From Neisseria sp. (GTDB taxonomy: Bacteria > Pseudomonadota > Gammaproteobacteria > Burkholderiales > Neisseriaceae): 43,140 nucleotides of DNA. The first letter of the stretch is position 1; every line of letters begins with the position of its first letter. Of this stretch, positions 9,212-32,142 are shown piece by piece. Location of the stretch: positions 1 through 43,140 of the forward strand of contig NZ_JAUNHL010000014.1 of NCBI RefSeq assembly GCF_030523955.1, written 5' to 3'. The notes beneath the pieces are model-generated. The model searched no databases and was not told the origin of the DNA. It was given only the letters and a program-made list of their open reading frames with translations. The position numbers were made by a program, and so were the translations under genes.

Positions 9212-9224
9212 TAAAGGATGCCAA

Positions 9225-12062: not shown

Positions 12063-12084
12063 CGTTCCTTGCAAGGAGTTTTAT

Positions 12085-12747: not shown

Positions 12748-12761
12748 CCTCTTCCCGACCG

Positions 12762-12789: not shown

Positions 12790-12803
12790 ATAAAGGAAAG
12801 TAT

Positions 12804-13730
12804 ATGGGACAGACCTTTTTTTCTGATATTGCCAACATGATCATGAACGGGATGGGCACCAACCTGTTCAGCAAGGCGGGCAGTCTGATTGCCGGTGTCG
12901 CACCGCTGTTTCAGGTGTGCTTTTCCATTTATGTACTGTTGTTGGCTTTTGATTATTACAAGAAGGGTTTTGATGAAAGCGTTGTCGATATTGGTAAAAG
13001 CTTGATCGGATGGGTCATTATCATCGCCTGTGCTTTTAACGCTTCCCAGTATGACAAAATTGCTAATATTCTATGGGAGTTGCCCGACCGCCTGAGTGGT
13101 TTTATTTCATCGCAGGAGTATACAGCCAGTGCGTTAGATACAAATGCCAGTAACGTGATGAACACCTTAACCAAAATCCCGGAGTACGCTGCAAGTCTAG
13201 ACTTTACTCAAGTATCAGATAAGTTGATGCTATATATTGGTTACTTTTTTGTTTTGGTATGTAGCTTTCTGTTTTTTGTAACAAGTTTTGCTTACTATGT
13301 TATAGCCAAGCTATCTTTGGCGATGGTGATTGTGATTGGTCCGATTTTTCTGGGTTCACTCTTGTTTCCCTCAACCCGGCAATGGGGCATGAACTGGATT
13401 GGTCAAGTTCTAAATTACTCGGTCACCATAATGTTTTTTACTATTCTGGGGTCTTTGCAGCAAGATTTCTTTACAACCCATCTGCAAAATGCTATCGTGG
13501 GTGAAATATCTTCCGTAGCACAAGTGCTTGGTCTGATTCCGCTTTTCTTCTTGTCCACCGTTTTCTTTATTTTGGTGGCATGGAATATCCCGTCAATTGC
13601 TTCCGCATTGACTGGCGGTGCTTCGGTAAACGGCTTCAGCCGAACATTAATGTCCGTTTATGCTTGGGGTAAGACTAAGAATTTACCTTCTTTCAATAGA
13701 AAAGGGGGTAACATCGGACAAAGCAAATAG
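12804..13730 (+). CDS. virB6: VirB6-like polytopic membrane protein
   Basis: VirB6/TrbL proteins form part of the inner-membrane channel. The 308-residue product has a short N-terminal amphipathic stretch, then about six hydrophobic helices, including LFQVCFSIYVLLLAFDYY near 45, a cluster at 150-195 with LAMVIVIGPIFLGSLLFPS, and VLGLIPLFFLSTVFFILVAW near 250. The start at 12804 is set by AAAGGAAAG; an in-frame start at 12774 falls inside the terminator. Placement after virB5 fits. Confidence 0.88.
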   Translation: MGQTFFSDIANMIMNGMGTNLFSKAGSLIAGVAPLFQVCFSIYVLLLAFDYYKKGFDESVVDIGKSLIGWVIIIACAFNASQYDKIANILWELPDRLSGFISSQEYTASALDTNASNVMNTLTKIPEYAASLDFTQVSDKLMLYIGYFFVLVCSFLFFVTSFAYYVIAKLSLAMVIVIGPIFLGSLLFPSTRQWGMNWIGQVLNYSVTIMFFTILGSLQQDFFTTHLQNAIVGEISSVAQVLGLIPLFFLSTVFFILVAWNIPSIASALTGGASVNGFSRTLMSVYAWGKTKNLPSFNRKGGNIGQSK

Positions 13731-13742
13731 TGGGGGTTCATT

Positions 13743-13943
13743 ATGTTAGGTAAATTGGCTAAATATTCTTTCTTGCTATGCCTTCTGGGTTGCACGGTTC
13801 AATTTATTATCGCCCCCCCATTGAACATGAAGGTTATGCTTTTCACAGTCATCTGCCTATTCATCAGCATGATGTCCTTTCTGGGTTGGTTTTTGGGCGG
13901 CCCGATTACCGTTGTGGTGAAAGAAGACCACAGCAACCGTTGA
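13743..13943 (+). CDS. Small membrane protein or lipoprotein after virB6
   Basis: This 66-residue product has two hydrophobic segments, LAKYSFLLCLLGCTVQFI (residues 5-22) and VMLFTVICLFISMMSFLGWF (31-50), and a polar C-terminus. LLGC at 14-17 resembles a lipobox, but the second helix makes a plain membrane protein as likely. GGGGG lies six bases before the ATG. In related VirB operons small proteins at this place include entry-exclusion proteins; that role is only a guess here. Confidence 0.65.
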   Translation: MLGKLAKYSFLLCLLGCTVQFIIAPPLNMKVMLFTVICLFISMMSFLGWFLGGPITVVVKEDHSNR

Positions 13944-13972
13944 GCTTTAGTAATTATCCACATATCATAAAA

Positions 13973-14000
13973 CCCGTACTAATTGAGTACGGGCTTTTTT
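13973..14000 (+). terminator. Hairpin upstream of the lipoprotein gene
   Basis: CCCGTACT (13973-13980) pairs with AGTACGGG (13986-13993), followed by six T and then the GAAGGAG of the next gene. Confidence 0.8.
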
Positions 14001-14017
14001 ATTTGAAGGAGTTTTTT

Positions 14018-14491
14018 ATGAAAATCCGTTTCCCCTTTGCTGTCCCGGCGCTAATCGCCGTTTCCGTCTTGACCGGCTGCGCCCAAATCAATGCCGGTCT
14101 GGAAGAATTAAATGGTGCCCTAGGCAAAGCCAATGCCGCCTTGTCCGGCTCAGGCCTTTCTAATGTCACCGGACAGTCCTATACCATCCCCGATAAAGTC
14201 ACAGCCCAGTATGAAATACGTAACCTTAAGCTTACCCTCAATAAAGTATCGGATAGCCGTACCGATGTTAAGTTTGACGGACAGGCTTTCAATAAAACCA
14301 ACAAACTTTTGAATGTCGCTATCGTTGTGCCGGTATATGACAAACAAAATTATTATGTAACTTCCGTTCGAGCTGAAGTGAATTTACCGCCTGGTGAGAA
14401 AAGCCGTGTTGATAAGATCGCCCCCTTTGCCCTTGAAGACGGCCATCACCTGAATACACAAAAAACCAAATTTACTGTTGCCACCTATTAA
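14018..14491 (+). CDS. Lipoprotein in the virB operon
   Basis: This 157-residue protein has a lipoprotein signal with lipobox LTGC (Cys23) after MKIRFPFAVPALIAVSV, then a short helical stretch rich in Ala/Gly and a beta-rich domain (DVKFDGQAFNKTNKLLNVAI and VPVYDKQNYYVTSVRAEVN). The fold looks like a small immunoglobulin-like or FxLYD-type domain. I do not recognise the family. It lies between virB6 and the virB7-like gene and may be a channel accessory or surface-exclusion lipoprotein. The ATG at 14018 has a strong GAAGGAG; longer in-frame starts run back through the terminator. Confidence 0.75.
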   Translation: MKIRFPFAVPALIAVSVLTGCAQINAGLEELNGALGKANAALSGSGLSNVTGQSYTIPDKVTAQYEIRNLKLTLNKVSDSRTDVKFDGQAFNKTNKLLNVAIVVPVYDKQNYYVTSVRAEVNLPPGEKSRVDKIAPFALEDGHHLNTQKTKFTVATY

Positions 14492-14518
14492 AACTACCTC
14501 AAACCCAAAACCGTACTA

Positions 14519-14543
14519 AGCGCCGATTGCCGGCGCTTTTTTT
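14519..14543 (+). terminator. Hairpin upstream of virB7
   Basis: AGCGCCG (14519-14525) pairs with CGGCGCT (14531-14537), followed by a run of seven T and then the GAAAGGA of the virB7-like gene. Confidence 0.8.
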
Positions 14544-14568
14544 ATTTCCGCACGAAAGGATCTGTGCC

Positions 14569-14691
14569 ATGAAAAACTGGATCATTGCCACGGTCGCCGC
14601 CGTGATGTTGTGCGCCTGTGCCGGTAAAAACCCGCCCAAGCCGCACGGTAAACCTTTTCCCATTAACAGTAGTGTGAACGGGGGTGTTTAA
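14569..14691 (+). CDS. virB7: VirB7-like lipoprotein, 40 residues
   Basis: VirB7 is a tiny outer-membrane lipoprotein that binds VirB9 and anchors the core complex. This short gene starts MKNWIIATVAAVMLCACAG; the probable lipidated residue is Cys15 or Cys17, and the mature part is proline-rich (NPPKPHGKPFPINSS). GAAAGGA lies upstream. Its TAA stop shares an A with the ATG of virB8 (TAATG), so the two are coupled, as in other VirB operons. Identity rests on size, lipobox and position. Confidence 0.75.
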   Translation: MKNWIIATVAAVMLCACAGKNPPKPHGKPFPINSSVNGGV

Positions 14692-15410
14692 TGGCAGCAC
14701 AATCTAACAAAACCCAAAAGGGCGGCAAACCCGAGCACCATAAAAAAGCCTTGGCCTTTATTGAAGGAGCCAAGGCTTTTGAGAAGTCTGAAATCGAAAT
14801 GGTGCGCCGTAACAGCAAAATAGCTTGGCGCATTTCCGGAGTTTGTCTTTTATTGGTCGGCTTGATGGCCGGTGCCATCGCAGGGCTGACACCGTTGAAA
14901 GAAGTAAAACCGTTTGTGGTGCGTGTCGATAATAACACTGGGATGACCGATATTGTGACCACGGTTAAGAAGAAAGAAGAAAGCTATGGAGAGGTGCTTG
15001 ATAAGTATTTCCTAGGCCAGTACATCCGTTATCGGGAAGGTTACGACTGGCAGACCATTCAGGACAGTTACGACGCTACCATGCTGCTGAGTTCTCCAGC
15101 GGTTCAGGGAGAGTTCTCTAAAATCTATCACAACAACCCCAACGCCCCGCACCTCAAGCTACGCGGTGAATACAAAGTGGTGGCCAAAATCAATGCCATC
15201 ACCTTTATTGGTAAAACCGCTCAAATCCGTTTTGAAAAACAAATGATCCCGGTGACCGGCGACTTGGATAAAGTCATTCCGCCACAAAAAATGATTGCCA
15301 CCATTGGTTTTGAATATACCGACAAGCCGTTTAGTGAGAAAGACCGTGCTGTTAATCCGCTGGGCTTTCAGGTGACCAGTTATCGAGTTGACCCGGAAAA
15401 CACCCCATAA
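14691..15410 (+). CDS. virB8: VirB8-like assembly factor
   Basis: VirB8 is a bitopic inner-membrane protein with a periplasmic NTF2-like domain that nucleates the channel. The 239-residue product has a cytoplasmic N-terminus, one helix at about 45-67 (IAWRISGVCLLLVGLMAGAI), and a periplasmic domain with EVKPFVVRVDNNTG, YIRYREGYDWQTIQDSY and the C-terminal NPLGFQVTSYRVDPE. All are typical of the family. It starts within the virB7 stop and is followed after nine bases by virB9. Confidence 0.92.
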   Translation: MAAQSNKTQKGGKPEHHKKALAFIEGAKAFEKSEIEMVRRNSKIAWRISGVCLLLVGLMAGAIAGLTPLKEVKPFVVRVDNNTGMTDIVTTVKKKEESYGEVLDKYFLGQYIRYREGYDWQTIQDSYDATMLLSSPAVQGEFSKIYHNNPNAPHLKLRGEYKVVAKINAITFIGKTAQIRFEKQMIPVTGDLDKVIPPQKMIATIGFEYTDKPFSEKDRAVNPLGFQVTSYRVDPENTP

Positions 15411-15419
15411 GGAAAGCGC

Positions 15420-16235
15420 ATGAAACTGAAAAACAATCTTTTGTCCCTGTTGTGCTTGTCTGCTCTTCCTCTGACGGCACAAGCGGTCACCGTTCCGAAA
15501 TGTGCCTCCCGTGATTGCTATATCCAACAGGCGGTTTACAACCCGAATGAGGTCATTCATATCCGAGGCAAAATTGGCAATGCTTCTTGGATCCAACTGG
15601 AACCCGACGAGCGTTTGGTTGGTGACTCTTCATTTTTGGGTTTGGGCGATAAAAAAGCTTGGAATTTGGGCATCAAGGGCAACAACATCGTATTTAAACC
15701 GACGGCCAAGCTGCCGGACACAAATCTGTTGATTCAGACCAATAAACGGTCATACGCATTTTCATTGTCACTTAAGCCGGTGAAAAACCAGAAACCCACC
15801 TACATTCTTCGTTTTATATATCCCGACTCAAAAGCCGCACAAAGCCGGGCGTTGGCTGATAAACAGGCAAAAGCACTGGATAAGCTGTATCGGGCGGGTA
15901 AGCTGAAAAATGCGGTGCACAATCAAAATTATTGGGCATTCGGCGATAAAGCACTGGCACCGACGGCGGCCTATGATAACGGCCGTTTCACCTATCTGAG
16001 CTTCGATAACGGCAAAGAGTTACCGATGGTATACAAGGTAATGGACGATGGTTCTGAGGCGCTGCTGAATACCCACATGGAAAACGATGTCATCGTGATT
16101 CATGAAACCGCCAAGAAATTTGTGTTGCGGCTGGGCAAGTCGGTGTTGGCTGTTGAGAACCGTGCCTTTAATGAGCAAGGGACGTTTAATCGAACCGGCA
16201 CGGACAGCAATGACAACGTGCGGGTTAACCGATAA
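15420..16235 (+). CDS. virB9: VirB9-like outer-membrane core protein
   Basis: VirB9 forms the outer layer of the core complex with VirB7 and VirB10. The 271-residue product has a signal peptide ending LPLTAQA (residues 16-22), an N-terminal beta domain, and a C-terminal domain with NYWAFGDKALAPTAAYDNGR and FTYLSFDNGKELPMVYKV followed by ETAKKFVLRLGKSVLAVEN. AAGGAAAGC precedes the ATG. Cys residues at 26 and 31 could pair with VirB7. Confidence 0.92.
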   Translation: MKLKNNLLSLLCLSALPLTAQAVTVPKCASRDCYIQQAVYNPNEVIHIRGKIGNASWIQLEPDERLVGDSSFLGLGDKKAWNLGIKGNNIVFKPTAKLPDTNLLIQTNKRSYAFSLSLKPVKNQKPTYILRFIYPDSKAAQSRALADKQAKALDKLYRAGKLKNAVHNQNYWAFGDKALAPTAAYDNGRFTYLSFDNGKELPMVYKVMDDGSEALLNTHMENDVIVIHETAKKFVLRLGKSVLAVENRAFNEQGTFNRTGTDSNDNVRVNR

Positions 16236-16252
16236 GAACGGAAAGGAATAAT

Positions 16253-17686
16253 ATGAATTTTCTTAAAAAAATCAATCCGCTGAAGAAGAAGCATGATAAT
16301 CCTCATGTCGACGATAATCAAGGCGATGCGGTGTCTCCCGATGACTACGCCGATGGTGACACTCAATATAACGGCATTGAACATGACGGAGCCGAAATAG
16401 AAGGCGACCATACCGGTGAGCGATTCGATGAGCAGCGTGATTTGTCTGAAATCGTTCAAAACGAACGGGTGGAGCCGGGTATTCCGCAAGATTTGTCTGC
16501 CGGCACAAACAAAAATATGCGTAAAGTCGCGTTTTTGGGCGTCGCTATTGTCGCTGCCGGTGCTGCTGTGGCTGGATTGATTGCATTTACCAGCGGTGAT
16601 CCTGAGCCGGCGGCAGATGCCCAACAGGCCCAACAGTCATCAGATGTTGCCGCTAACACACGCCCCAAAAACTTTAATCAAGATAAGGAAAAAATCTTAG
16701 CTGCCGAACGTGAAGAGGCTGCTGCATTGGCCGCATCGGCGGCTTCAGCAGCGGCAGCATCAGCACCTACTTCGGGGTCGGCTTCAGCGACGGCTACGCC
16801 CGCTGACACCGTAAACACGGCTGATACTTCTCAGGCAGCTGAAAAGACCAAAAGTCCTGCGGAATTAGTACGGGATCGCCGCTTGGAAGAAGGTATTTTT
16901 GTTGATGACGCTGCTGCCGGAGAAGTTACATTGTCACAGTCTGATTCAAGTGGTGGTAACGCGGGTGGCAGTAGTACTTCCGAGAGTCTGTTGGGTGGGG
17001 GTTCGGGTTCTGAGAAGTCCTCCGATAGCGGCTCTTCATTTGCTGCCAAGCTGACACCGTCCTCAACGGTGGCCGCCAACGCAGAACAGCGTGGTGATTT
17101 AAGTTATTTGTTGGCCAAAGGCACCAATATTCGTTGTGGTCTTGAAACCCGCATCGTCACCACCCAGCCGGGCTTTACTCGTTGCGTGGTGGTGAAAGAT
17201 GTGTATTCGGCCAACGGCAAAGTCCTGTTGGTTGAACGCGGCAGTAAAGTGGTGGGCGAACAAACATCGGCGCTGTTGCAAGGCCAAGCCCGGGTATTTG
17301 TGTTGTGGAATGAATTGGAAACGCCTTCCGGTGTAAAGGTGTCACTTCGCAGTCCCGGCAGTGGTGCTTTGGGTGAGTCGGGTCATGGTGCCCATGTCCG
17401 CTATCATTTCTTGCAGCGTTTTGGCGGTGCAATTATGATTAGTTTGATAAACGATATCGGCAACGGACTGACCACCAGCAATGAAAGCAGCGGAGGCAGC
17501 AATAACAATATCACTTACGAGAACACGAGCGAGTCTGCGCAAGAAATGGCGACGGAAGCCTTGAAAAACAGCATCAATATTCCGCCGACAGGTGTGATTA
17601 ATCAGGGTTCGCTGATTAATATCATGGTAGCGCGAGATGTGAATTTTGATAAGGTTTACGATATTGTGCCGAATCCGATGTATTAG
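16253..17686 (+). CDS. virB10: VirB10-like core scaffold protein
   Basis: VirB10 spans both membranes and senses ATP energy. The 477-residue product has an acidic cytoplasmic N-terminus, one helix at about 92-113 (VAFLGVAIVAAGAAVAGLIA), a long Ala/Ser/Pro-rich periplasmic linker (about 120-270), and a conserved C-terminal TrbI domain with LAKGTNIRCGLETRIVTT, ANGKVLLVERGSKVVGEQ and GVINQGSLINIMVARDVNF. GAAAGGAAT precedes the ATG. It closes the virB7-B10 core cluster. Confidence 0.93.
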   Translation: MNFLKKINPLKKKHDNPHVDDNQGDAVSPDDYADGDTQYNGIEHDGAEIEGDHTGERFDEQRDLSEIVQNERVEPGIPQDLSAGTNKNMRKVAFLGVAIVAAGAAVAGLIAFTSGDPEPAADAQQAQQSSDVAANTRPKNFNQDKEKILAAEREEAAALAASAASAAAASAPTSGSASATATPADTVNTADTSQAAEKTKSPAELVRDRRLEEGIFVDDAAAGEVTLSQSDSSGGNAGGSSTSESLLGGGSGSEKSSDSGSSFAAKLTPSSTVAANAEQRGDLSYLLAKGTNIRCGLETRIVTTQPGFTRCVVVKDVYSANGKVLLVERGSKVVGEQTSALLQGQARVFVLWNELETPSGVKVSLRSPGSGALGESGHGAHVRYHFLQRFGGAIMISLINDIGNGLTTSNESSGGSNNNITYENTSESAQEMATEALKNSINIPPTGVINQGSLINIMVARDVNFDKVYDIVPNPMY

Positions 17687-17701
17687 TTTTCTTCAACTGA
17701 A

Positions 17702-17730
17702 AGCGCCCGCATCATGCGGGTGCTTTTTCT
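17702..17730 (+). terminator. Hairpin between virB10 and virB11
   Basis: AGCGCCCGC (17702-17710) pairs with GCGGGTGCT (17716-17724), one mismatch, followed by five T and the CAGGAAC of virB11. Confidence 0.75.
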
Positions 17731-17743
17731 TTCAGGAACGTAA

Positions 17744-18865
17744 ATGTTTACTCAAACAGGCATTCCAAGCGGTACGATCCGCCCCGATACTACCGTGCGA
17801 AATATGCTCGACCGATTGGGCATTTCGGAATTGTTGAATCAGCCGGGTGTTACCGAGGTATTGATTAATCGTCCCGGGGAGTTATTTTTGGAAACTTCAG
17901 CCGGATTCGAGCGTATTGAAGACGGTAAACTGACGCTGACAGCGCTGACCCAACTGGCTACTGCTTTGTGTATTTTTAACAGTAAGCACCTATCTCACGA
18001 GTCACCTATTCACTCGGTAACACTGCCTGATGGTGAGCGCGGTCATATTATGATGCCGCCCTCTTGTGAAGACAAAACACTGGTTTTCGCGTTTCGCAAA
18101 CCTTCCAATACCCGCTTTAGTCTGGATGATTATCTGGGTTCTGGTCGTTTAAACCAATTTGCTGACGTTTCCACCTATGGCGTAGCGGAAAAGTGTCTGG
18201 AATCTGAAATTGAAATTGACGGGCGTTTTATGCGCGACGTTAGCGATAAGATGAAACTGCCCAATGATGTCAAGCTGGCTGATTGGCAATATCGAATGTT
18301 GAACGATAAAGCCAACAAAGACTTGAATGCGTTTTTTCAGGCGGCGATTGACCACCGCTTAAACATCTGTATGGTCGGTGGTACCGGCTCCGGTAAAACT
18401 ACCTTTACCAAAGCCTTGGTGGATATGATTCCGGCATCTGAGCGGCTGATTACCATTGAAGATACGCATGAATTGAGTACCCCTAACCATCCGAATCATG
18501 CCCATTTGTTTTACAAAGAACACATCACCGCGAAAATGATTGTAGCCGCGTGTATGCGTCTGAAGCCCGACCGTATTCTGTTGACTGAGTTGCGCGGTGA
18601 CGAGGCATGGGATTACTTGTCTGTGCTGAATACCGGCCACCCCGGCGGCCTGACATCCGTCCATGCTAACGATGCGCGTTCGGTGCATTACCGCATCGCC
18701 CAGTTGGCAAAAGAGTCGGCTACGGGACAAAACATGGATTACGACTATGTGTTGAACACCGTACGCTCTACCATCGATGTCATTTGCTTTTTTGAAAAAA
18801 CGCGCCTGACTGAACTGTATTACGACCCGGTGGAAAAATTCTACGCCATGAGTGGTCGATCATGA
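17744..18865 (+). CDS. virB11: VirB11-like traffic ATPase
   Basis: VirB11 is the hexameric cytoplasmic ATPase at the base of the channel. The 373-residue product has Walker A GGTGSGKTTFT (K218), the Asp box ITIEDTHELSTPNHPNH after it, Walker B-like RILLTELRGDEAWDYL near 270, and the His box GHPGGLTSVHAND near 295. These are the family motifs in the right order. Its last four bases (ATGA) overlap the start of the nuclease gene. Confidence 0.94.
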   Translation: MFTQTGIPSGTIRPDTTVRNMLDRLGISELLNQPGVTEVLINRPGELFLETSAGFERIEDGKLTLTALTQLATALCIFNSKHLSHESPIHSVTLPDGERGHIMMPPSCEDKTLVFAFRKPSNTRFSLDDYLGSGRLNQFADVSTYGVAEKCLESEIEIDGRFMRDVSDKMKLPNDVKLADWQYRMLNDKANKDLNAFFQAAIDHRLNICMVGGTGSGKTTFTKALVDMIPASERLITIEDTHELSTPNHPNHAHLFYKEHITAKMIVAACMRLKPDRILLTELRGDEAWDYLSVLNTGHPGGLTSVHANDARSVHYRIAQLAKESATGQNMDYDYVLNTVRSTIDVICFFEKTRLTELYYDPVEKFYAMSGRS

Positions 18866-19920: not shown

Positions 19921-21942
19921 ATGAAAAAGTTTATGACAATAGCAATTATCATCTGTTTGGTGATGGTGGTTGCGACCATAGGTGGGATGTATATTGGCTC
20001 CCTGATATTTAAACAATGGATGGGATTGGCGTCCGAACCGTCCATTACTATGCTCTATACCTTTTGGCATTATTCTGAAGGGTTGCCCGCCAAAATGATG
20101 TTTCCGCTACAAGCCTCAACAACGGTTGCGGCTTTTTTCCCGGTAGCAGCTTTGGTGCTGTGTTTGGCAGCCATATTTGGCAAGCCGAAGCGTGAACTGC
20201 ACGGTTCGGCACGCTTTGCTAATGGCAGCGAGATAAAGAAAGCGGGGCTGCTGCGAAAAGCGTTTGGCGAAAAAGATTCGCCAGATTTGTTAATTGGCAA
20301 ATATAAGCGCAAATACCTGCGGTGGTCGGATAACGGTTTTGTGTATCTGGCGGCTCGCACCCGTGGTGGTAAGGGCGTCGGCTTTGTGATACCGAATTGT
20401 CTTCATTTCCGGCACAGCATGGTGGTAAATGACGTCAAAAAAGAAAACTTTCTGATTACCGCAGGCTTTCGGGCGGCCCACGGACAAAAAGTTTTTCTGT
20501 TTAACCCCAGCGGCACGATGCCGTATCACGATCGCGATAAGAGCGCACCGCTGATTAGTCACCGCTGGAATCCCTTTACCTATGTGCGACGCGAGCCTAA
20601 ATTTACATACAAAGATGCTTTGTCCATAGCGGCTATTTTCTACCCATTACCGGCAGAGGATCGCGGCAGCGCGAAGTTCTTCCAGCAAGAGGCGCAAAAA
20701 CTGTTTACTGGCTTACTGCTGTACTTGATTGAAACGGAGGGCGAGCGGGATTTAAACCTGCCTGAAAACCGAACCACGCTTGCCAACCTGTTCCGCCTGA
20801 CCGCCCCGGCCAACGGCAAAACCCTGCAAGAATGGATCCGTGAGGAGATTGAGTTACGTGCACTTAATTCTGAATCCCAATTAAGCCGAAACTGCCAAAC
20901 CTTGCTGCTGGGCTTTGCTAATGGCAACGGTAAAACCGGCGGCGATATTCTCTCCACCATGTCCGCACCGTTGGCGATTTTTTTGGATCCGGCAGTAGAG
21001 GCAGCGACTAGCGGCGATGACTTCTTTCTGGATAACGTCCGCCGCGAACTGACCACAATTTACTTGGGCATTTCGCCGGAGGAAATCAAAGTCTACGGCA
21101 CGCTGCTGAACCTGTTCTTTTCCCAGCTGGCAGACGTCAACGTGAGGCAGGGATTACCACAGGATAACCACGAACTGAAATACCAATGTTTGTTGATGCT
21201 GGATGAATTCACCGCTTTGGGACGTATTCAGGCGATTGAGCAAGGGGTTGGCTTCTTGGCCGGTTACGGTATCCGACCGGCTATTGTGTTTCAAACACCG
21301 TCGCAGGTCGAAGGCGTGTATGGCAAAACGGGCAAGCAGAATTTCTTCTCAAACTTTGCCTGCCGCCTGATCTTCTCGCCGCGCGAGCAAGATGAAGCCG
21401 AGGAGTTGAGTAAGCTGATCGGTTACGAAACCTATAAGGCCAAATCCACCTCACGGTCACGTGGCAAAAGCAGTAGCAGCAGCAATAGCGTAAGTGACCA
21501 GAAGCGTGCGGTGATGAACCCCGACGAATTGAAAATCATGCCTGACAGCGACTGTGTCATCAGCATGACCGGTACCCGCCCGATTTACGCGAAGAAAATC
21601 ATCTACTGGAACGACCCGGTTTTGAGCAAACGCGCGAATTGGCCGGTTCCCCAAATTCCCGAATTGGTCATTACGCCTCAATCCAAACCAAAGCCCCAAG
21701 CGTTAAAGCCGGAATATGTTTCACCCGAAGAGATGGCCTCCTTCCGCTGGCAGGATGCGGTTAATGCGGAAGAAATTGCCCGTGTGCTGCTGGGTGCACT
21801 GGTGCCGCCGGGCAGTAAGCCCGAGTACGTGGCGGAACTGGTGCCGGCGATTGCCAAAAATTGGGGTGAAGGTAGCCTGCCTGTGATTGCAGAAATCCTG
21901 AAAACCTCATCAGGTATCACCGTGCCCCCAGATGCCGCATGA
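19921..21942 (+). CDS. virD4: VirD4-like type IV coupling protein
   Basis: The coupling protein links the relaxosome to the channel and selects secreted substrates. The 673-residue product has two N-terminal helices (about 5-25 and 55-85) and the TraG/VirD4 domain: LHGSARFANGSEI near 91-103, Walker A RTRGGKGVGFVIPN (K151), and Walker B QCLLMLDEFTALGR near 421-434. The C-terminal 90 residues after PQIPELVITPQ are variable. GGGGGTGAT precedes the ATG. Any cargo signal on the element's proteins would be read here. Confidence 0.94.
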   Translation: MKKFMTIAIIICLVMVVATIGGMYIGSLIFKQWMGLASEPSITMLYTFWHYSEGLPAKMMFPLQASTTVAAFFPVAALVLCLAAIFGKPKRELHGSARFANGSEIKKAGLLRKAFGEKDSPDLLIGKYKRKYLRWSDNGFVYLAARTRGGKGVGFVIPNCLHFRHSMVVNDVKKENFLITAGFRAAHGQKVFLFNPSGTMPYHDRDKSAPLISHRWNPFTYVRREPKFTYKDALSIAAIFYPLPAEDRGSAKFFQQEAQKLFTGLLLYLIETEGERDLNLPENRTTLANLFRLTAPANGKTLQEWIREEIELRALNSESQLSRNCQTLLLGFANGNGKTGGDILSTMSAPLAIFLDPAVEAATSGDDFFLDNVRRELTTIYLGISPEEIKVYGTLLNLFFSQLADVNVRQGLPQDNHELKYQCLLMLDEFTALGRIQAIEQGVGFLAGYGIRPAIVFQTPSQVEGVYGKTGKQNFFSNFACRLIFSPREQDEAEELSKLIGYETYKAKSTSRSRGKSSSSSNSVSDQKRAVMNPDELKIMPDSDCVISMTGTRPIYAKKIIYWNDPVLSKRANWPVPQIPELVITPQSKPKPQALKPEYVSPEEMASFRWQDAVNAEEIARVLLGALVPPGSKPEYVAELVPAIAKNWGEGSLPVIAEILKTSSGITVPPDAA

Positions 21943-21993: not shown

Positions 21994-24900
21994 ATGAGCA
22001 ATTACGATGAAATCCAAAAAGCACTAACTTATATCGATCCGCACGACCGCGATGTTTGGGTCAACACCGGGTACTCGATTAAAAACGAGATGGGAGACAA
22101 CGGCTTTGATATGTGGGACCAATGGTCGCAACAGGCCGATAACTACAATGCCCGCTCTGCCCGCAATGTGTGGAAAAGCATCAAAAACCCAACCCGTACA
22201 ATCGGATCGTTGTTCCTCGATGCACGCACAAACGGATACCGCCCAGACAAGCCCTATACTCCTCCGCCACCGGAAGAGCAGGCTCGGATAAAGGCCGAGC
22301 GAGAAGCAGCACGATTGGCTGAAGAAAAGGCGCAGGCCGAACGATACGGGCGGGTAAAAAATACCGCACAGCGTATTTGGTCGACGGCGGCACCGGCTGA
22401 TATGAATCATCCCTATCTGGCAGCCAAAGGCATCACCGACCCCGCCGCCGTCGCCGGATTGCGTCAGAACCATTATCAAGACGACCACAATCTGCTGGTA
22501 CCGGTGGTTTATGATCGCGAAATCGTCAATATGCAGTCGATCAACCAAGACGGCGGTAAGCGCTTTTTATCCGGCGGCCAGGTACACGGCGGATTTGCCG
22601 TGGTCGGTGATGCCGGCAAAACCGATCAGGGTGTCGTGATAGCCGAAGGTTATGCCACCGCCGCCAGTATTCATCAGGCGATAGGCAAGCCGGTGATTGT
22701 GGCGTTTAACGCGGGCAACATGGTGGCGGTATCCGAACGCTTGGCCAAAAACCTGCCGCACGACGTGCCGGTTGCGTTTGCGGTCGACAACGACGCGACT
22801 CAAACGGGCATGAAAAAAGCATTGCAAGCCGCCTCCTATTTTGAAGGGCGCGCCCAAGTGATTGAGCCTGATTTCACCATGAAACAAATTCAGCAATTTC
22901 AGATGGAAAACGGTGTGGATGATAAAGGCCGCCCTAAGTTGCCGAGCGACTTTAACGATCTGCACCGGCTGGCCGGTATCGATGCCGTGCGTGAAAAAAT
23001 GGAAGCAGCGTTTCACCGCCCGGAACCGGCATCCCGTCCTGAAGTCGCTGCGCCGTCGGTTGAGCCGGCTCCGGTGCCGTCGTCTGCCACCGCTGCTCCG
23101 GCACCGATGACCGAACAGGATTGGGCGCAAGTCATAGCCGAAGAAGCCCGGCTGTCCGGCACCGCCATCCCTGCCGCTAAAGTTGCTATGCCTCCAGCCG
23201 CCGCACCGGCGACACCTGCCATACAGGAAACCGAAATGAACAACCAAACCAAACCCGCAACGATGGTTGCCGATGAACCACCGAAAACCACCGACAACAG
23301 CATCGAATATGCCGGTCGCAGTCAAACGAAGACAGCTGAACCGTATCAAGCCGTCGACCCAGACCATCTTTACGGCAACGGCCGCGCCGCCGATTTCACC
23401 CCGGATCGTAAACGCTATGAAGCCGACTTCAAGCATTACGAAGTCTATGACCCGACCACCAACATCCAGTATCTGCGGCGCGATCCGAAACAGATTCAGG
23501 CCGATTTGGACAATGCCGGCGGTATCGGCGGTTATGACGGCATCACCCATGACGGCGAACGGGTTGCCTTCCGCAAAACCGAAGCCGGTTGGGAAGCACC
23601 GTTGCCGGGTAAGGCACCGGAGCCGCCCGCCCCGGAAAAAACGGCTGACCGTTCCGAAGCATCGGTCGGCGCAGACAAAAAAGCGGTAACCGACCTTAAT
23701 TACCGTATCCCGCCCGAAAGCATCGCCAGCCGTTATGTGGTGGCCGACGGCAAGTATCTCTCTGCCGCCAACATGACCACTGTGTTGTTTGTGGATAGCG
23801 GCAAAAAAATCAGCACCGCCAAAACCGACACGCAAACCATCAACGATATGTTGGAAGTGGCCAAAGAAAAAGGTTGGGACAGCATCAAGCTTTCCGGCAG
23901 TAAGGAATTTAAGGCCATGATGTATGTGGCGGCGGAGAGCCAAGGCATCCGTACCAGCGGCTACCGGCCAACCCCGGAGGATTTGGCTTTGGTGGAACGC
24001 CTGCGCCAAGACCGGTCGCTGAACAGTATCGAGGCTACGCCGAATCGCTCCCCCAGCGTTGCTGCCGAGCCGGAAAAGGTTCCGCCCGCCCCTTACCCGG
24101 GCGACAAGCGACCACGAGCGCCTGACACTCCCGCTTCGGCTGTTGCGCCTGCGGCCGAAAAGGATATAGGCGAGCGTATCGTCGAACTGGGTAACGCCCC
24201 GTACCGTCACAACCCGGAAAACCAGCACAGCCCGTATATCGTGTTGGAGCGGGAAGGTAAGGAACGCACGGTTTGGGGGGTAGACCTGTCCGACGCAATG
24301 GAGCGCAGCGGCGCAAAAGTGGGCGACCGTATCCGGCTGCAATCGCTGGGCAAGCAGCCGGTGGAGTTGGAGGTGCCGCAACGTAATGAAGCGGGCGAAG
24401 TAACCGGGATGAAAAAAGAGCAAGTCTCCCGTAACCTGTTTAAGATGGAGGTTGTCGGACACGAACGCGACGAACGCCGCGAGCACGGTACCCAGCCGGA
24501 TGTCGAGGCCATTTCCAAAGCCGATAAGATGATGGCGCAAAGCCGCGTGCCCACCAAGGCGGCCATCAACACTTCACCTCTTGCCGATACCCAAGCCGGC
24601 GTTCCGTTGCAGGCGATTGGTGACAAGGAGGTGCCCTCGGAAGTCTTGAATGATGCCAATCGGATGAAATCGGCTGCCTTGGATACCAACCTTGCCGCGT
24701 CCAAAGCAAACTATATGGACAAGGCGTCCAAGTTGTCCAAGCCTAATAAACAGCATCTGGAGTTTTATGAACGCAATGTTATGGATACCATTCGCGGGGT
24801 AAAAGGCGAAGCCCGTACTTTGGCACTGACCAACTATTACGAGCACACCGCCAAGATGATGTCCGGCACCAAGCTGACCCTGCCCAAACCGGCACAAATA

Positions 24901-24996
24901 CCTACCCCGGCTGTCGGGCAGAATCAGAGCCTTCAGGCCGCACGTTCGCCTTCTGTCACTCATGAGCGCGAACAGACGCCGGAAATAGAACGTTAA
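21994..24996 (+). CDS. Conjugative DNA primase with PriCT-2, TOPRIM and LPD7-like domains
   Basis: This 1000-residue protein resembles the TraC-type primases of conjugative elements, some of which are carried into the recipient. Visible parts: an N-terminal PriCT-2-like segment (ALTYIDPHDRDVWVNTGYSI, 10-29); a TOPRIM domain with VIAEGYATAASIHQ near 216 and VAFAVDNDATQTGMK near 260; low-complexity linkers; an LPD7-like block near 570-660 (RIPPESIASRYVVADG, GWDSIKLSGSKEFKAMM); a domain near 725-800 with RTVWGVDLSDAMERSGAKVG that also occurs in some relaxases; and a C-terminal tail ending EQTPEIER. Domain names are from memory of the families. TTGGAGTAATTA precedes the ATG. The tail resembles those of ArdC and zeta below. 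Confidence 0.85.
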   Translation: MSNYDEIQKALTYIDPHDRDVWVNTGYSIKNEMGDNGFDMWDQWSQQADNYNARSARNVWKSIKNPTRTIGSLFLDARTNGYRPDKPYTPPPPEEQARIKAEREAARLAEEKAQAERYGRVKNTAQRIWSTAAPADMNHPYLAAKGITDPAAVAGLRQNHYQDDHNLLVPVVYDREIVNMQSINQDGGKRFLSGGQVHGGFAVVGDAGKTDQGVVIAEGYATAASIHQAIGKPVIVAFNAGNMVAVSERLAKNLPHDVPVAFAVDNDATQTGMKKALQAASYFEGRAQVIEPDFTMKQIQQFQMENGVDDKGRPKLPSDFNDLHRLAGIDAVREKMEAAFHRPEPASRPEVAAPSVEPAPVPSSATAAPAPMTEQDWAQVIAEEARLSGTAIPAAKVAMPPAAAPATPAIQETEMNNQTKPATMVADEPPKTTDNSIEYAGRSQTKTAEPYQAVDPDHLYGNGRAADFTPDRKRYEADFKHYEVYDPTTNIQYLRRDPKQIQADLDNAGGIGGYDGITHDGERVAFRKTEAGWEAPLPGKAPEPPAPEKTADRSEASVGADKKAVTDLNYRIPPESIASRYVVADGKYLSAANMTTVLFVDSGKKISTAKTDTQTINDMLEVAKEKGWDSIKLSGSKEFKAMMYVAAESQGIRTSGYRPTPEDLALVERLRQDRSLNSIEATPNRSPSVAAEPEKVPPAPYPGDKRPRAPDTPASAVAPAAEKDIGERIVELGNAPYRHNPENQHSPYIVLEREGKERTVWGVDLSDAMERSGAKVGDRIRLQSLGKQPVELEVPQRNEAGEVTGMKKEQVSRNLFKMEVVGHERDERREHGTQPDVEAISKADKMMAQSRVPTKAAINTSPLADTQAGVPLQAIGDKEVPSEVLNDANRMKSAALDTNLAASKANYMDKASKLSKPNKQHLEFYERNVMDTIRGVKGEARTLALTNYYEHTAKMMSGTKLTLPKPAQIPTPAVGQNQSLQAARSPSVTHEREQTPEIER

Positions 24997-25298: not shown

Positions 25299-26492
25299 AT
25301 GGGCAATAACATGGACAAAAAGAACACCTTTCAAGAGTTTGCCGAAGCGGTGGCCAACGAACTGATCGATCAGTTACGGCGCGGCGTCGCCCCGATGCAG
25401 CAGCCGTGGAATCCGGCAACCGGTAGTGACTGGCCTTACAACCATGTCACCGGCAACCGCTATTCGGGCGGCAATGCTTTATTGCTGATGATGCATAAAA
25501 AATACCAAGACCCGCGTTGGATGACGTACCGGCAGGCACAAAGCGTCGGTGCCCAGGTACGCAAGGGCGAAAGCGGTGTCTCCTTGGTCAAGCTGATTAC
25601 CAACATCGAGCGAAACGCGCGCGACGAAAAAGGCAAGCCGATTCTGGACAGTAAGGGTGAGCCGGTGAAAGAACGGTTTCAGCTGGAAAACCCATATTTC
25701 AAACGATTCACCGTATTCAACGCCCAACAGATTGACGGGCTGCCTCCCTTGGAAAAGGCCCCGGTTTGGGAAGACCACGAGCGGGCGGAAAGGCTGTTAA
25801 GCCTCTCCGGTGCCGATATACGGCATGTTGCCGGTAACGATGCCTATTACCACTTTGTTCACGACCATATTGTGCTGCCCGAGAAGAAGCAGTTTCCGAG
25901 CGATGGTAATTACTACGCCGTCGCTTTGCACGAACTTGGTCACTGGACGGGGCATGAAAGCCGGTTAAACCGGGAAATGGTGGGTTTTAGGCAAGACCCT
26001 GCCAAATATGCCAAAGAAGAGCTTCGGGCGGAAATTGCCTCACTGATGCTTTCGCGGGAAATGGGGCTGCCGGTCGAGGTAGAACGCCATGCTCATTATG
26101 TCGGTTCTTACATCGAAATCCTGCAAAACGATCCGACCGAAATTTTACGGGCTGCCCGCGATGCGGAGCGCATCCAGCAATACGTTCTGGGTTTCGAGCG
26201 CAACATCGGGCCGGAACCGGAGCAGGCTGCCGAACCGGTCGCCACCCTTTCCCCGCTGGAAATCAAGCATGAGTTAGCCAAAGAGCGCTATTTGATGCAA
26301 ACCCCGTTACTGACGGCGACCGAGCGTCAAGAGCGGATGGTGATGGAGTATATGATGGAAAAAACGATTGCCGGTTTGTCTCCGTCTGCCCAAATGCAGG
26401 CCAGAACCAACTTCTACGAAGCGCAAATCGCATCTTCCGTCAAACAGGCGGAACGCGATATCGATCAACCGCAGCTGGAGTTCGACCGGTGA
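25299..26492 (+). CDS. ardC: ArdC-like antirestriction protein with a secretion-like C-terminal tail
   Basis: ArdC proteins bind ssDNA and protect incoming conjugated DNA from restriction. This 397-residue protein has the N-terminal ssDNA-binding domain (GVAPMQQPWNPATGSDWPYN near 29-48 and YSGGNALLLM near 54), and a zincin domain with HELGHWTGHESRLNR (H211, E212, H215), plus EELRAEIASLML near 240. The last 39 residues hold LSPSAQMQARTNFYEAQIA and end QLEFDR; the same motif ends the zeta toxin at 31243. The start is 25299 or the ATG at 25311; neither has a clear ribosome binding site. Confidence 0.9.
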   Translation: MGNNMDKKNTFQEFAEAVANELIDQLRRGVAPMQQPWNPATGSDWPYNHVTGNRYSGGNALLLMMHKKYQDPRWMTYRQAQSVGAQVRKGESGVSLVKLITNIERNARDEKGKPILDSKGEPVKERFQLENPYFKRFTVFNAQQIDGLPPLEKAPVWEDHERAERLLSLSGADIRHVAGNDAYYHFVHDHIVLPEKKQFPSDGNYYAVALHELGHWTGHESRLNREMVGFRQDPAKYAKEELRAEIASLMLSREMGLPVEVERHAHYVGSYIEILQNDPTEILRAARDAERIQQYVLGFERNIGPEPEQAAEPVATLSPLEIKHELAKERYLMQTPLLTATERQERMVMEYMMEKTIAGLSPSAQMQARTNFYEAQIASSVKQAERDIDQPQLEFDR

Positions 26493-26519: not shown

Positions 26520-27053
26520 ATGGATAACCAAACAAAAAGCCAGCCGATCCGTGTGTTTGGGCTGACTGTTACCGAACTGGAAGCCCTGCGCGAACTCGCG
26601 CAGAAACGGTACGGCAAACCCAGTGTGTCGTTGTTGGCCAAAAAGCTGTTACAGGCGCAGCTGGAGACGCCGGCGGAACCTGAAGCGGCCAAACTGCCGC
26701 CACCGAAGTGCCGCCGCCGCATCACCGTGCGCCTACCCGACAAAGACCGTGCCTATCTCGAGGCCGCCGCGGAACAGCGACGCGGTACCATCAATGATGT
26801 TGCCCGTGACATTATCCAGTCACATATCTATCAACACCCGATGATGTCCACGTATGAGGCCGATATGTTGTATCAGTCCAATTACCAGCTATTGCTGATC
26901 GGCCGCAACATCAACCAAATCGCCCGCCGTTTAAACGCGGGCGAAAACGTTTCTTTAAGCAGCCAGCAGATTACCGATCTGAAAAATTTTATTGATAACC
27001 ATATCGGCAAAGTCAACCATCTGCTGCAAATCCACCGCCGCCGTAAGCGTTGA
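26520..27053 (+). CDS. MobC-like relaxosome accessory protein
   Basis: This 177-residue protein is likely the DNA-binding helper of the relaxase at oriT. The middle part has a ribbon-helix-helix-like segment (RRRITVRLPDKDRAYLEAAA near 68-87) and the C-terminal half has the MobC-type block NYQLLLIGRNINQIARRLNA near 123-142, which is the most conserved part of the family. The ATG at 26520 has TTGGAG upstream; a GTG at 26514 is less likely. It ends 14 bases before the relaxase gene, its usual partner. Confidence 0.85.
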   Translation: MDNQTKSQPIRVFGLTVTELEALRELAQKRYGKPSVSLLAKKLLQAQLETPAEPEAAKLPPPKCRRRITVRLPDKDRAYLEAAAEQRRGTINDVARDIIQSHIYQHPMMSTYEADMLYQSNYQLLLIGRNINQIARRLNAGENVSLSSQQITDLKNFIDNHIGKVNHLLQIHRRRKR

Positions 27054-27067
27054 GAACCGGAGCGTAT

Positions 27068-28300
27068 ATGAAAAAGATTGATGATTGGTTTTTGGGCTAT
27101 AAAACCCGTTCGGTCAAGGGTAAACGGGACAGCGGTTTTTATTTGGGCGGTAATAGCCATAAATCATCCAAACCGCTGAAGCCCGGCAGCGGTTTGGCCA
27201 ACCTTCGCGCCGCCGCCCTCAAACATCCCGAAGTGATGGTTAAAATCCCGAGGCGGTTGAGCAGTAACTCAAAAGGCATGCGCGGTGTGCGCAATCATTT
27301 GGACTATGTCTCGCGCAATGGAGAGGTTCCGCTGGAAAACCAATCCGGTGAAAAGCTGCTCGGCAAGCGGGCGGTGAAAGAGTTTACCAACGACTGGCAG
27401 AAGCTGGGTATCCCAGAGGAAAGCAAGCATAAAGAGGCGTTGAATATCGTGCTGTCGATGCCCGAAGGCACACCGCCGGACGCGGTGCTGAACGCCGCCC
27501 GCAGCTTTGCCGCCGAACAGTTCGCCGGGCACCAGTATGTATTCGGCCTGCACCACGACAGCCATGATCCGAATGAGCCGAAACACCCGCATGTCCACCT
27601 GTGCGTATTGATGCGCGACGAGTACGGACAACGGCTTAATCCGCGTAAAAACGACCTGTTCGAGTGGCGTGTCCGCTTTGCCGAAAAACTGCGTGAAGAA
27701 GGCGTATTGTGCGCGGCCACCAAGCGCCAGCATCGCGGCAAAACGCTGAAGCCTGAAAACAGTTTTGTGCGTTCCATCCGTTCAAGGGGCGATCTGCCGG
27801 ATCGGTATAAGCAACAGGCGGAGGAACTGATAGATGCGCTGAAACATAACGACCGGCCAAAACATCCGTTTCTGCGCGAAGCCATGCAGACACGCGGGCT
27901 GGTATTGGAAGAGTACGGCAAGATTGCCAAAGAACTCTACAAGATGGGCAACAAAACCGAAGCCCGCATCATCAGTCAGTTGGCCAAAGAAGTTGCCGGT
28001 CAGGATTTCACGACCAAAGCGCAGAAGGAATATGATCAAGCCGTGCTACAAGGCACATCACCCGAGCAGTTGCGCGCAGCCTTATCGAATCAAGCCGACG
28101 GTATTGAAAAATCCCATGCGTTGATTAAGGGTTTAAGACAGGCCGGCTTCAAGTCGGAAGCGGAGCAATTGCAGACGATGTCGGCGCAGCTGGCCCGCCA
28201 GTCGTTCGTCGATATGGCCGGCAGTCAACAAAAAGGCATTCAAAAAGATATTCCCGCTCCATCCCGAGATATGAATCAGGGAAACGACTTAGACAGATAA
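27068..28300 (+). CDS. MOBP-type relaxase (MobA/VirD2 family)
   Basis: The relaxase nicks oriT, stays bound to the 5' end and pilots the strand through the secretion channel. The 410-residue product has the motifs of the family: the probable catalytic Tyr is Y80 in HLDYVSRNGE, and the metal-binding HxH is H175/H177 in KHPHVHLCVL, followed by DEYGQRLNPRKNDLFEWR. The C-terminal part after 230 is helical and ends MNQGNDLDR, a short acidic tail of a type often recognised by VirD4. GGAG precedes the ATG. No oriT hairpin or nic site was identified; it may lie in the short gaps nearby or outside the window. Confidence 0.92.
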   Translation: MKKIDDWFLGYKTRSVKGKRDSGFYLGGNSHKSSKPLKPGSGLANLRAAALKHPEVMVKIPRRLSSNSKGMRGVRNHLDYVSRNGEVPLENQSGEKLLGKRAVKEFTNDWQKLGIPEESKHKEALNIVLSMPEGTPPDAVLNAARSFAAEQFAGHQYVFGLHHDSHDPNEPKHPHVHLCVLMRDEYGQRLNPRKNDLFEWRVRFAEKLREEGVLCAATKRQHRGKTLKPENSFVRSIRSRGDLPDRYKQQAEELIDALKHNDRPKHPFLREAMQTRGLVLEEYGKIAKELYKMGNKTEARIISQLAKEVAGQDFTTKAQKEYDQAVLQGTSPEQLRAALSNQADGIEKSHALIKGLRQAGFKSEAEQLQTMSAQLARQSFVDMAGSQQKGIQKDIPAPSRDMNQGNDLDR

Positions 28301-31002: not shown

Positions 31003-31242
31003 ATGTGCACCTTGATGCAAAAAGATGCGCTGATTGAACGAGTCGCTTCCGTGCAGGCTTTGATTGCCCGTAAAACCCCGCGCACCGGAAAACGTACCGC
31101 AGACCAAGACAGAATCGTTTCTCTGCGCCGTTTCCTTTATGCTTCGGCTCCCGAGAGCATTGACTTTAAAGCAGTGGCGGATGAGTGTAATGCTCTTCAC
31201 CAAAAATATGCGGCACTGCCAAAACTAGAGGCGACGGCATAA
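31003..31242 (+). CDS. Probable epsilon-like antitoxin
   Basis: This 79-residue, helical, mostly charged protein starts with a Cys-containing MCTLMQKDALIERVASVQAL and ends before zeta without a gap (TAA then ATG). AGGAG lies upstream. In epsilon/zeta pairs a small helical antitoxin precedes zeta and blocks its ATP site, and gonococcal conjugative plasmids carry such pairs. Size, position and spacing support the call; I cannot match the sequence directly. Confidence 0.7.
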   Translation: MCTLMQKDALIERVASVQALIARKTPRTGKRTADQDRIVSLRRFLYASAPESIDFKAVADECNALHQKYAALPKLEATA

Positions 31243-32142
31243 ATGATTCCCGCACGGGAAGCCGCCTCATTTGAACTGATTTGGGACGACCTGATTTCTG
31301 AAAGTCAGGTTCGCCCCTCTTCTTTGCCTAAGGGTTTCGTATTGGGCGGGCAGCCCGGCGCAGGAAAATCCAACCTTGTCCGTCAAATCAATGCGGAGCT
31401 TGGTGGTAATCTGTTAGTGGTAAACGGCGATGAGTTCCGTCGCTATCACCCTGAATTTGAGGAAATTCAAGCAAAATATGGGAAAGATGCTCCCAAGTAT
31501 ACCGCCTCATTTTCTGGAGAAATGACAGAGCGTGTAATTGCCAAAGCGTTGTCTGAAGGCTACAACATCAGTGTCGAAGGTACTTTCCGCACCACCGAAG
31601 TACCGATGAAAACTCTAGACCAGATGCGGAGTCACGGATATACAACAGCGGTATACATCCAAACCACCCCGGCTGAAGTTAGCTGGCAGAGTACTATTGA
31701 GCGCTACGAAGAAATGAAGGCTCTAGGGGAAATGCCTCGCTATACGGATAAGGCTCACCACGATTTAGTCGTGGATCTGCTACCGAAAAATGCCGATACC
31801 GTATATTTATCTGGCAAGGCCGACCATTTCCGAGTCTACAACCGTGACGGCTTAGTTTTTGACGACCGCATCCATGTTGGACAAATGCCAAGCACCGCCA
31901 TCGATTACGAGCTGCATCGCAACACCCGGCAGCTTAATGACATTCAAACGGACTTAAGGGCTAATGCCCATTTGCTATCCGTTACTCAGAAACTGGTAAT
32001 AAAGGCCGGTGAAGAAGTGATTAAAGAACTATCCCCCGCCGATCAAATACAGGCGAGAATTAATCTATATGGCAGCCAGTTGGCTCAAATAAAAGACAAA
32101 GAGATAAGTCAACCTTATGACTCTCCTGATATAGAGCGGTGA
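31243..32142 (+). CDS. Zeta toxin with a secretion-like C-terminal tail
   Basis: Zeta toxins phosphorylate UDP-sugar precursors and stop peptidoglycan synthesis. The 299-residue product has Walker A GGQPGAGKSN (K42), the catalytic region VNGDEFRRYHP (D63), SVEGTFRTTEVPM near 110-122 and the ERYEEMK block near 150. It resembles the zeta proteins of gonococcal plasmids. The last 38 residues are an extra module (LSPADQIQARINLYGSQLA, ending SPDIER) that matches the end of ArdC at identical positions (LSP, Q, QAR, N, Y, Q, A). This suggests a translocation signal. Its start touches the antitoxin stop. Confidence 0.88.
   Translation: MIPAREAASFELIWDDLISESQVRPSSLPKGFVLGGQPGAGKSNLVRQINAELGGNLLVVNGDEFRRYHPEFEEIQAKYGKDAPKYTASFSGEMTERVIAKALSEGYNISVEGTFRTTEVPMKTLDQMRSHGYTTAVYIQTTPAEVSWQSTIERYEEMKALGEMPRYTDKAHHDLVVDLLPKNADTVYLSGKADHFRVYNRDGLVFDDRIHVGQMPSTAIDYELHRNTRQLNDIQTDLRANAHLLSVTQKLVIKAGEEVIKELSPADQIQARINLYGSQLAQIKDKEISQPYDSPDIER

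Follow-up and report, generated by a model that had tools for sequence, protein, structure and literature searches.

A C-terminal tail common to a zeta toxin and DNA-transfer proteins of a Neisseria conjugative element, a candidate VirD4 substrate signal

The window, by which we mean the whole 43,140-nucleotide stretch of DNA analysed, carries a conjugative element. It combines VirB1 to VirB11-like genes with VirD4, a primase, ArdC, a MobC-like gene, a relaxase, a methylase and a presumed antitoxin-zeta pair. The genes that matter for the argument are these:

8175..18865, + strand, VirB1 to VirB11-like mating-pair genes, ten frames by Pfam
19921..21942, + strand, VirD4 coupling protein (Pfam T4SS-DNA_transf, 1.6e-96), the presumed signal reader, without the tail
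21994..24996, + strand, primase, 1000 aa (Pfam PriCT_2, Toprim_3, LPD7)
25299..26492, + strand, ArdC, 397 aa (Pfam ArdcN and MPTase-PolyVal)
27050..28300, + strand, relaxase of MOBP type, 416 aa (Pfam Relaxase, 1.9e-9)
31003..31242, + strand, presumed antitoxin (epsilon) gene, 79 aa, assigned by position, without the tail
31243..32142, + strand, zeta toxin gene, 299 aa (Pfam Zeta_toxin, 1e-44, residues 24-206)

The mating-pair frames match the Pfam families SLT, TrbC (weakly), VirB3, CagE_TrbE_VirB, T4SS, TrbL, VirB8, CagX, TrbI and T2SSE. The relaxase matches the NCBIfam model MobP1 at 2e-29, a score under that model's cut-off. Zeta has the P-loop GGQPGAGKS at residues 35-43 and is encoded within an element that has VirD4, VirB genes and a relaxase. 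The stop codon of the presumed antitoxin abuts the zeta start, and its homologues adjoin zeta in relatives; the 79-aa protein has no match in Pfam or NCBIfam. Passages of PMC7371117 describe neisserial integrative elements that combine MPF-T virB genes with MOBP relaxases; the words 'zeta' and 'Fic' are absent from the main text of that paper. At the far end of the window (37838-43123) lies a gene for a 1761-aa protein which, by eye, has RTX-type glycine-aspartate-rich repeats at its start.

The original prediction held that zeta and ArdC end in one C-terminal module, with similar last residues on primase and relaxase, and that VirD4 reads this tail as a translocation signal. The elements of this tail are placed as follows:

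24682..24873, + strand, primase, divergent copy of the tail module, residues 897-960 (profiles, hhalign)
24979..24993, + strand, primase end PEIER (end-motif counts)
26244..26489, + strand, ArdC tail module and end LEFDR, residues 316-397 (profiles, hhalign)
28283..28297, + strand, relaxase end NDLDR, end motif only, without the module (end-motif counts, hhalign)
31888..32109, + strand, zeta helical tail module, residues 216-289 (AlphaFold2, profile match to ArdC and Fic tails)
32110..32139, + strand, zeta disordered terminal peptide QPYDSPDIER, the last 10 residues (pLDDT <50, end counts by family)

Zeta (31888-32139) and ArdC (26244-26489) have in common a helical module of about 75 residues followed by a short acidic-aliphatic-x-Arg end. 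The positions given for the last 38 residues of zeta (31243-32142; from 32026) and the last 39 of ArdC (from 26373) were correct, as were the four ends, zeta PDIER, ArdC LEFDR, primase PEIER and relaxase NDLDR. The primase motif ARTLALTNYYEHTA, which had been placed at 24796, starts at 24811.

That zeta and ArdC end in one module is borne out by profile searches in both directions, the target family being left out of the profile each time. The 3,004 targets comprised 154 window frames, a Fic protein described below and 2,849 frames from the chromosome of a relative. A profile from zeta tails alone found Fic at 7e-20 and ArdC at 8e-7 and missed the primase. A profile from ArdC and polyvalent tails alone found Fic (3e-7), zeta (2.5e-5) and the primase (3.9e-5), and neither profile returned a background frame at E<=10. 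Profile-profile comparison by hhalign joined the zeta/Fic tails to the ArdC/polyvalent tails with P 97.1 (E 7.5e-11) and the primase to the ArdC/polyvalent tails with P 96.7 (E 4e-10), while the primase aligned weakly with the zeta/Fic tails (P 1.9, E 0.025). Controls with VirD4, MobC, the methylase and a reversed alignment gave P <1.5. Among window frames, the primase domain scored E 8e-4 against a profile containing no primases, and its module copy stops 40 residues short of the primase C-terminus. The profile comparison of the zeta and ArdC tails had been set beforehand as a check that might speak against the signal idea; the tails are related, which favours it.

The module is present on zeta, ArdC and, in divergent form, the primase, but not on the relaxase, which shares the last residues only. 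A relaxase carrying the whole module was rejected at hhalign P 0.8-1.1, and its last residues recur in relaxases of sister elements. Within a 20-residue core, zeta and ArdC have 11 identical residues with the same codon at 3/11, so the likeness lies at the protein level and is not a DNA repeat.

In the AlphaFold2 model of zeta, the tail forms helices 216-224, 226-240, 247-260 and 265-289 outside the kinase core; averaged over ten residues at a time, pLDDT is 90-96 up to residue 280 and 74 for residues 281-290. Modelled alone, the module is predicted as a three-helix bundle (H2-25, H32-45, H50-73), three helices where the full model has four; a BID domain is a four-helix bundle with a hook. A fold search placed no relative of the module among solved structures at E<=0.001. 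Module and end together span about 84 residues and are not Gln-rich; the end QPYDSPDIER is acidic with a single Arg, unlike the positively charged C-terminal tail that characterises BID domains.

The end motif was counted with a strict pattern ([DE], 0-2 residues, [ILVMFW], any residue, Arg) and a looser one ([DE]R). As a frame end, [DE]R occurs in 34/355 frames of 20 element loci (including one that is unlikely to be a real gene) against 2/353 frames in 400 kb of a relative's chromosome (Fisher p 9e-9). Counts by family use distinct C-termini, with fragments and broken copies kept in the denominators. On this basis the strict end is found in 26/36 relaxases, 16/20 primases and 9/12 ArdC proteins, in three polyvalent families at 4/10, 4/4 and 0/2, and in 5/353 chromosomal background frames. 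It is absent from VirD4 (0/14), MobC (0/25), methylase (0/9), SSB (0/8) and antitoxin (0/11). Fic frames have it in 1/4 and zetas in 3/22; the zetas rise to 11/22 with the looser pattern because they mostly end PER. That looser pattern also marks 14/36 relaxases, 11/20 primases and 8/12 ArdC proteins and is missing from coupling protein (0/14), MobC (0/25), methylase (0/9) and antitoxin (0/11).

A zeta search in 83 genomes of the family exposed a different protein that matches in the tail only. Pfam assigns it to the Fic family (9e-12), and the 69-aa frame preceding it is presumably VbhA-like. The intact copy, in genome G016, lies 3 kb downstream of a relaxase and adjoins mobC, a tailed protein and a shortened primase. 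This locus is an element remnant that keeps some VirB genes, and the sole VirD4 of the genome is 330 kb away. The second tailed copy (G050) is split in two frames inside an element with VirD4. In several elements zeta and Fic sit 3 to 7 kb downstream of the relaxase. The Fic locus also has a 206-aa version of a serine-recombinase-like frame seen by eye after zeta in the window (32335-32661), so that the window copy looks shortened.

The tail profile matched in 27/83 genomes, of which 25 were kept, two weak matches (G053 and G019) having been discarded as chance before the tailed genomes were counted. The carriers are zeta, Fic, ArdC and three families grouped by sequence, whose tested members have no Pfam match. 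Distinct C-termini with the module number 10 for zeta, 9 for ArdC, 9 for the primase, 13 for the three families, 2 for Fic and 7 for unclassed proteins or fragments, by a profile built partly from those same C-termini. Loci L058-L077 have a variable slot between primase and mobC; in most of these 20 loci it holds ArdC or one to two of the three tailed families, and the flanking order is kept. Searches of viral contigs and of plasmids with the zeta and ArdC tails, and of phages with the Fic tail, gave no credible match, and a tail widespread in plasmids or present in phages was rejected accordingly. Among 369 genomes of the class, the tail search returned its own genome and one weak match in a 37-codon frame. 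For named genomes the tail alignment was insufficiently conserved to locate carriers, and zeta itself served as query.

Across the 83 genomes, tail and a close VirD4 clade occur together in 21, the tail alone in 4, that VirD4 alone in 3 and neither in 55. The tail tracks one coupling-protein clade in 21/25 tailed genomes, but the genomes are not independent because the co-occurrence falls within one element family. It is linkage inside that family, not independent evidence of recognition. One of the four tail-only genomes holds a zeta fragment and another a match with internal stops. Genomes with a distant VirD4 only gave a weak tail match in 1/12, on a zeta-like protein in G055 (E 2.7e-5).

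Tails far from any type IV secretion system (T4SS) would weaken the signal idea, and here the picture is divided. On one side, the distance to a VirD4 gene is 7 to 24 kb for 7/8 intact zetas with the tail; on the other stand a copy in N. dentiae, the Fic remnant and the four genomes without a close coupling protein. The N. dentiae copy is a second intact tailed zeta pair amid chromosomal genes (zeta L229 14037-14930), with no transfer genes seen on its 32-kb contig, in a genome that also carries a full element. In G029, a zeta that lacks its start is next to a primase-like frame and 1.5 Mb away from VirD4. G063 has two zetas ending IER and RER without the module, and no PF02534 coupling-protein match in its genome.

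T4SS read C-terminal signals, count relaxases and primases among their substrates and use VirD4 as receptor. Given these facts, a translocation signal is the most economical account, covering at once the marking of the toxin and not the antitoxin, the unrelated catalytic domains of the marked proteins and the unmarked proteins of the machine. We therefore take the tail to be a putative two-part C-terminal signal by which the element's own VirB/VirD4 conjugation system would recognise its substrates, with a probability of roughly 60%. A VirD4-read signal is the best reading because the end is found on relaxase, primase, ArdC, zeta and Fic and is missing from the T4SS components examined and from MobC, methylase, SSB and antitoxin, and because the tail follows one coupling-protein clade. 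The sequence evidence suggests that toxins of two unrelated kinds pass as proteins into the recipient during conjugation.

Such a signal would consist of a small helical module and a flexible peptide ending acidic-aliphatic-x-Arg. It would mark proteins that accompany the DNA, namely the relaxase (by the end only), the primase, ArdC and other polyvalent proteins, and also the toxin of the resident toxin-antitoxin pair, zeta in the window and Fic in sister elements. Donor cells would be protected by the antitoxin, which keeps the toxin silent. The toxin bears the tag and the antitoxin does not, and VirD4 would pass the toxin alone to the recipient. Where the element becomes established, antitoxin would be made from the incoming DNA and the cell would recover; where it does not, the arrest would last. 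The sequences show the common module and end, their absence from the machine and antitoxin proteins examined and the linkage to the element; that VirD4 recognises the tail, that the toxin crosses and what it does in the recipient are the steps that we infer.

Further points in favour are that the zeta C-terminal sequence is shared with substrate classes (the module through ArdC to the primase, the end with the relaxase), that other elements share other tails and that alphaproteobacterial zetas carry BID. Points against are the relaxase without a module, the primase copy only weakly like the zeta/Fic tails, the chromosomal tailed zeta of N. dentiae, the Fic remnant without VirD4 and the other Fic in two frames. 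To these are added the weak match in G055, the module-less zetas of G063, the extra helices of the pSM19035 zeta and the lack of matches among solved structures.

The main rival is that the tail serves for docking and brings element proteins together at the relaxosome or at another common partner, export not being required. Primase, ArdC and relaxase do process DNA, the small helical bundle as modelled would suit protein binding, and a relaxase without its own module is what a platform might look like. By family, however, zeta and Fic act on peptidoglycan precursors or modify proteins, and docking leaves the tag on them without reason; MobC, SSB and the methylase lack the end. For these reasons docking appears unlikely. 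The tail might instead govern the stability or activity of element proteins in the donor, for example as a degradation or antitoxin-responsive region. A peptide predicted to be disordered could serve as a protease recognition site, but this option is improbable given that the tail also sits on large enzymes having no antitoxin, that the combination of a terminal Arg and an aliphatic residue turns up in one family after another and that the tail tracks conjugation genes.

Two further alternatives would deny the tail a role on the toxin. Recombination might swap gene 3' ends within elements and leave the tail as a by-product with no selected role there, and zeta and a 366-aa protein of pMBUI6 do bear the same long tail, which resembles recent copying. 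In the window, by contrast, zeta and ArdC share residues and not codons, which indicates a likeness that is old and kept, and intact zetas of sister genomes retain module and ER end, so that 3'-end swapping has a slim chance. Least probable is that the tail is an ordinary zeta C-terminus and its likeness to ArdC a convergence of helix composition. The zeta of pSM19035 likewise has additional C-terminal helices, so some helical extension is normal for zetas; Foldseek aligns the Gram-positive zeta over 298 columns at rmsd 8.4. Yet the profile and profile-profile scores stand out against controls, and the plasmid search with the tail matched no zeta C-termini. Moreover, tail-less zetas occur in two relatives as 243-codon frames, one with an internal stop, and both genomes have no match to the coupling-protein family PF02534.

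The substrate-signal reading has precedents, contrary to the original prediction that no case had been described. Passages of PMC5675462 report demonstrated transfer by a conjugative T4SS of VbhT, a Fic toxin with a BID signal from the Bartonella schoenbuchensis plasmid pVbh. PezT/Zeta-BID toxins of alphaproteobacterial conjugative plasmids are proposed there and in parts of PMC6509941 as likely but unproven substrates. VbhT/VbhA parallels the present pair, with its putative signal, in two respects: the C-terminal signal domain of the toxin is also found on the relaxase of the plasmid that encodes it, and the pair lies downstream of the relaxase gene (passages of PMC5675462). It differs in that BID is another domain, the Neisseria relaxase shares last residues only and VbhT transfer is demonstrated, whereas transfer of the Neisseria zeta is a prediction. 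The PezT/Zeta-BID toxins likewise join a Zeta kinase to a T4SS signal domain as a proposed substrate (passages of PMC6509941 and PMC5675462), with the difference that the domain is BID and the hosts are alphaproteobacteria. At E<=0.01 the BID profile PF17841 matches none of the four proteins zeta, ArdC, primase and relaxase. The predicted helical bundle with a flexible end resembles the BID architecture described in parts of PMC6509941. According to the same passages, most of the T4SS signals that have been described carry positive charge or are hydrophobic, so the acidic Neisseria end counts against the signal reading.

Comparison can be extended to the XVIPCD of the Xanthomonadales X-T4SS, which is also a single C-terminal module on many unrelated toxins. 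These effectors are read by VirD4 and have cognate immunity proteins, and a figure legend lists a Zeta Toxin domain among their effector domains (passages of PMC6536674). The XVIPCD is set apart by description, not by profile, having about 120 residues, a Gln-rich end and a chromosomal killing system (same passages). ArdC and the primase have the make-up of polyvalent proteins (ArdC-N with MPTase, LPD domains), criteria that do not apply to zeta. Polyvalent proteins resemble the present case in their ArdC, MPTase-PolyVal and LPD domains and in predicted injection along with DNA, and differ in that passages of PMC5512222 describe no shared C-terminal signal; the phrase 'secretion signal' is absent from its text. 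Demonstrated protein substrates of conjugation systems include relaxases, a primase and FicT (passages of PMC8406263). Among the papers ranked highest in searches of the openly available literature, none dealt with this tail or with Neisseria zeta or Fic toxins as conjugation substrates.

Zetas of gonococcal plasmids offer a similar setting, a neisserial conjugative plasmid and an additional C-terminal domain (passages of PMC5923241 and PMC2848598), termed an OB fold without a stated function in parts of PMC5923241. Their C-terminal regions nevertheless resemble KfrB of the same plasmid and are unrelated to the Neisseria element tail. In the gonococcal plasmid record (L135 37608-40247 and 19095-19451), both zetas give C-terminal matches to Pfam KfrB, one of 7e-7 above the cut-off and one of 2e-4 below it. 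The KfrB-matching region is probably the OB-fold domain of the solved structure.

What appears new here is, first, a toxin tail unrelated to BID in Neisseria elements, and the finding supplies a testable, BID-independent tag in them. Why toxin-antitoxin pairs abound on mobile elements has long been asked, and the customary explanation is that cells of the donor lineage are killed when they lose the element. Should the toxin itself be a conjugation substrate, the pair would act in the recipient at entry, and failed matings too would have an effect. A simple rule may follow: comparing the C-termini of the unrelated proteins of one element could predict conjugation-delivered proteins where signals are hard to see.

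A second new point is that zetas of other elements, too, seem to have C-termini in common with further proteins encoded alongside them (7/18 elements against 1/18 for an N-terminal control). Each zeta's own element was ranked against 19 others, the elements being the window and 17 plasmid records, with a Xanthomonas citri stretch excluded. A first test put the own plasmid on top for 9/21 zetas and for 1/21 in each control; its E. faecium match was a zeta fragment, excluded from the repeat. In the repeat, the last 60 residues matched best in the own element for 8/20 zetas (7/18 elements), the first 60 for 1/20 (1/18 elements) and the middle for 0/20, where chance is 1 in 20. The binomial p of 3e-6 is merely a guide, as the plasmids were chosen for variety, most of them after the pattern appeared, and some are related.

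The best own-element partner of zeta is ArdC in the window, Moraxella bovis and Lactobacillus crispatus, KfrB in the gonococcal plasmid, a 289-aa protein (and ToxN/AbiQ) in Fusobacterium polymorphum, the 366-aa protein in pMBUI6 and, by a narrow margin (48 vs 43), a 265-aa protein in F. nucleatum. In the F. nucleatum element zeta, Fic, toprim and others all end ER. The own element was not on top for H. parainfluenzae, Pasteurella, Tatumella, Acinetobacter, Veillonella, Bacteroides, E. faecium, Ligilactobacillus salivarius, X. phaseoli, Agrobacterium and B. glumae. The L. salivarius zeta tail is also on the ArdC-N protein of its own plasmid, with a higher score for the related one of L. crispatus. 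Zetas of H. parainfluenzae and Pasteurella end KTKKFKR or KTKKLKR and their ArdC-primases SKIKR or TKIKR. In pVb1978 one tail ending ER is common to ArdC, primase and a phosphoribosyltransferase. As a positive control, BID scores above the Pfam cut-off in the TraA of L147 and in two alphaproteobacterial zetas, those of L210 and L222, and below it in the zetas of L147, L218 and L223. A wider survey covering 77 of 80 zeta loci deserves little weight, its contigs being short and several of its positives looking like chance: C-terminal sharing reached p<0.05 in 13/77 loci against 2/77 for the N-terminal control and a nominal expectation of about 4. Sharing there was not enriched near T4SS genes (3/23 with, 10/54 without, by a small T4SS reference set).

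Taken more broadly, conjugative elements of several phyla might tag the toxin and not the antitoxin of resident pairs with their own export module, the toxin then arriving as a protein and the antitoxin in the form of its gene; we regard this as a tentative proposal, somewhat doubtful on present signs. The tagged toxins, of unrelated families, would be zeta, Fic, ToxN/AbiQ and perhaps a DUF6036 nucleotidyltransferase. A recipient would then be hostage from contact until the element is established, and modules would vary by element, evolving alongside its export machinery.

Individual elements add some detail. In the Fusobacterium polymorphum plasmid (L145 20420-26672), a nearly alike C-terminal stretch is found on zeta, the ToxN/AbiQ toxin and the 289-aa protein. 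In pMBUI6 (L138 42113-43321, 10258-11358), the zeta frame continues beyond the point where the twin tail of the 366-aa protein ends ELER. In Ruminococcus (L165 9983-10984, 13472-14293), zeta and a DUF6036 nucleotidyltransferase have a common tail ending NKNKNDIE[HR].
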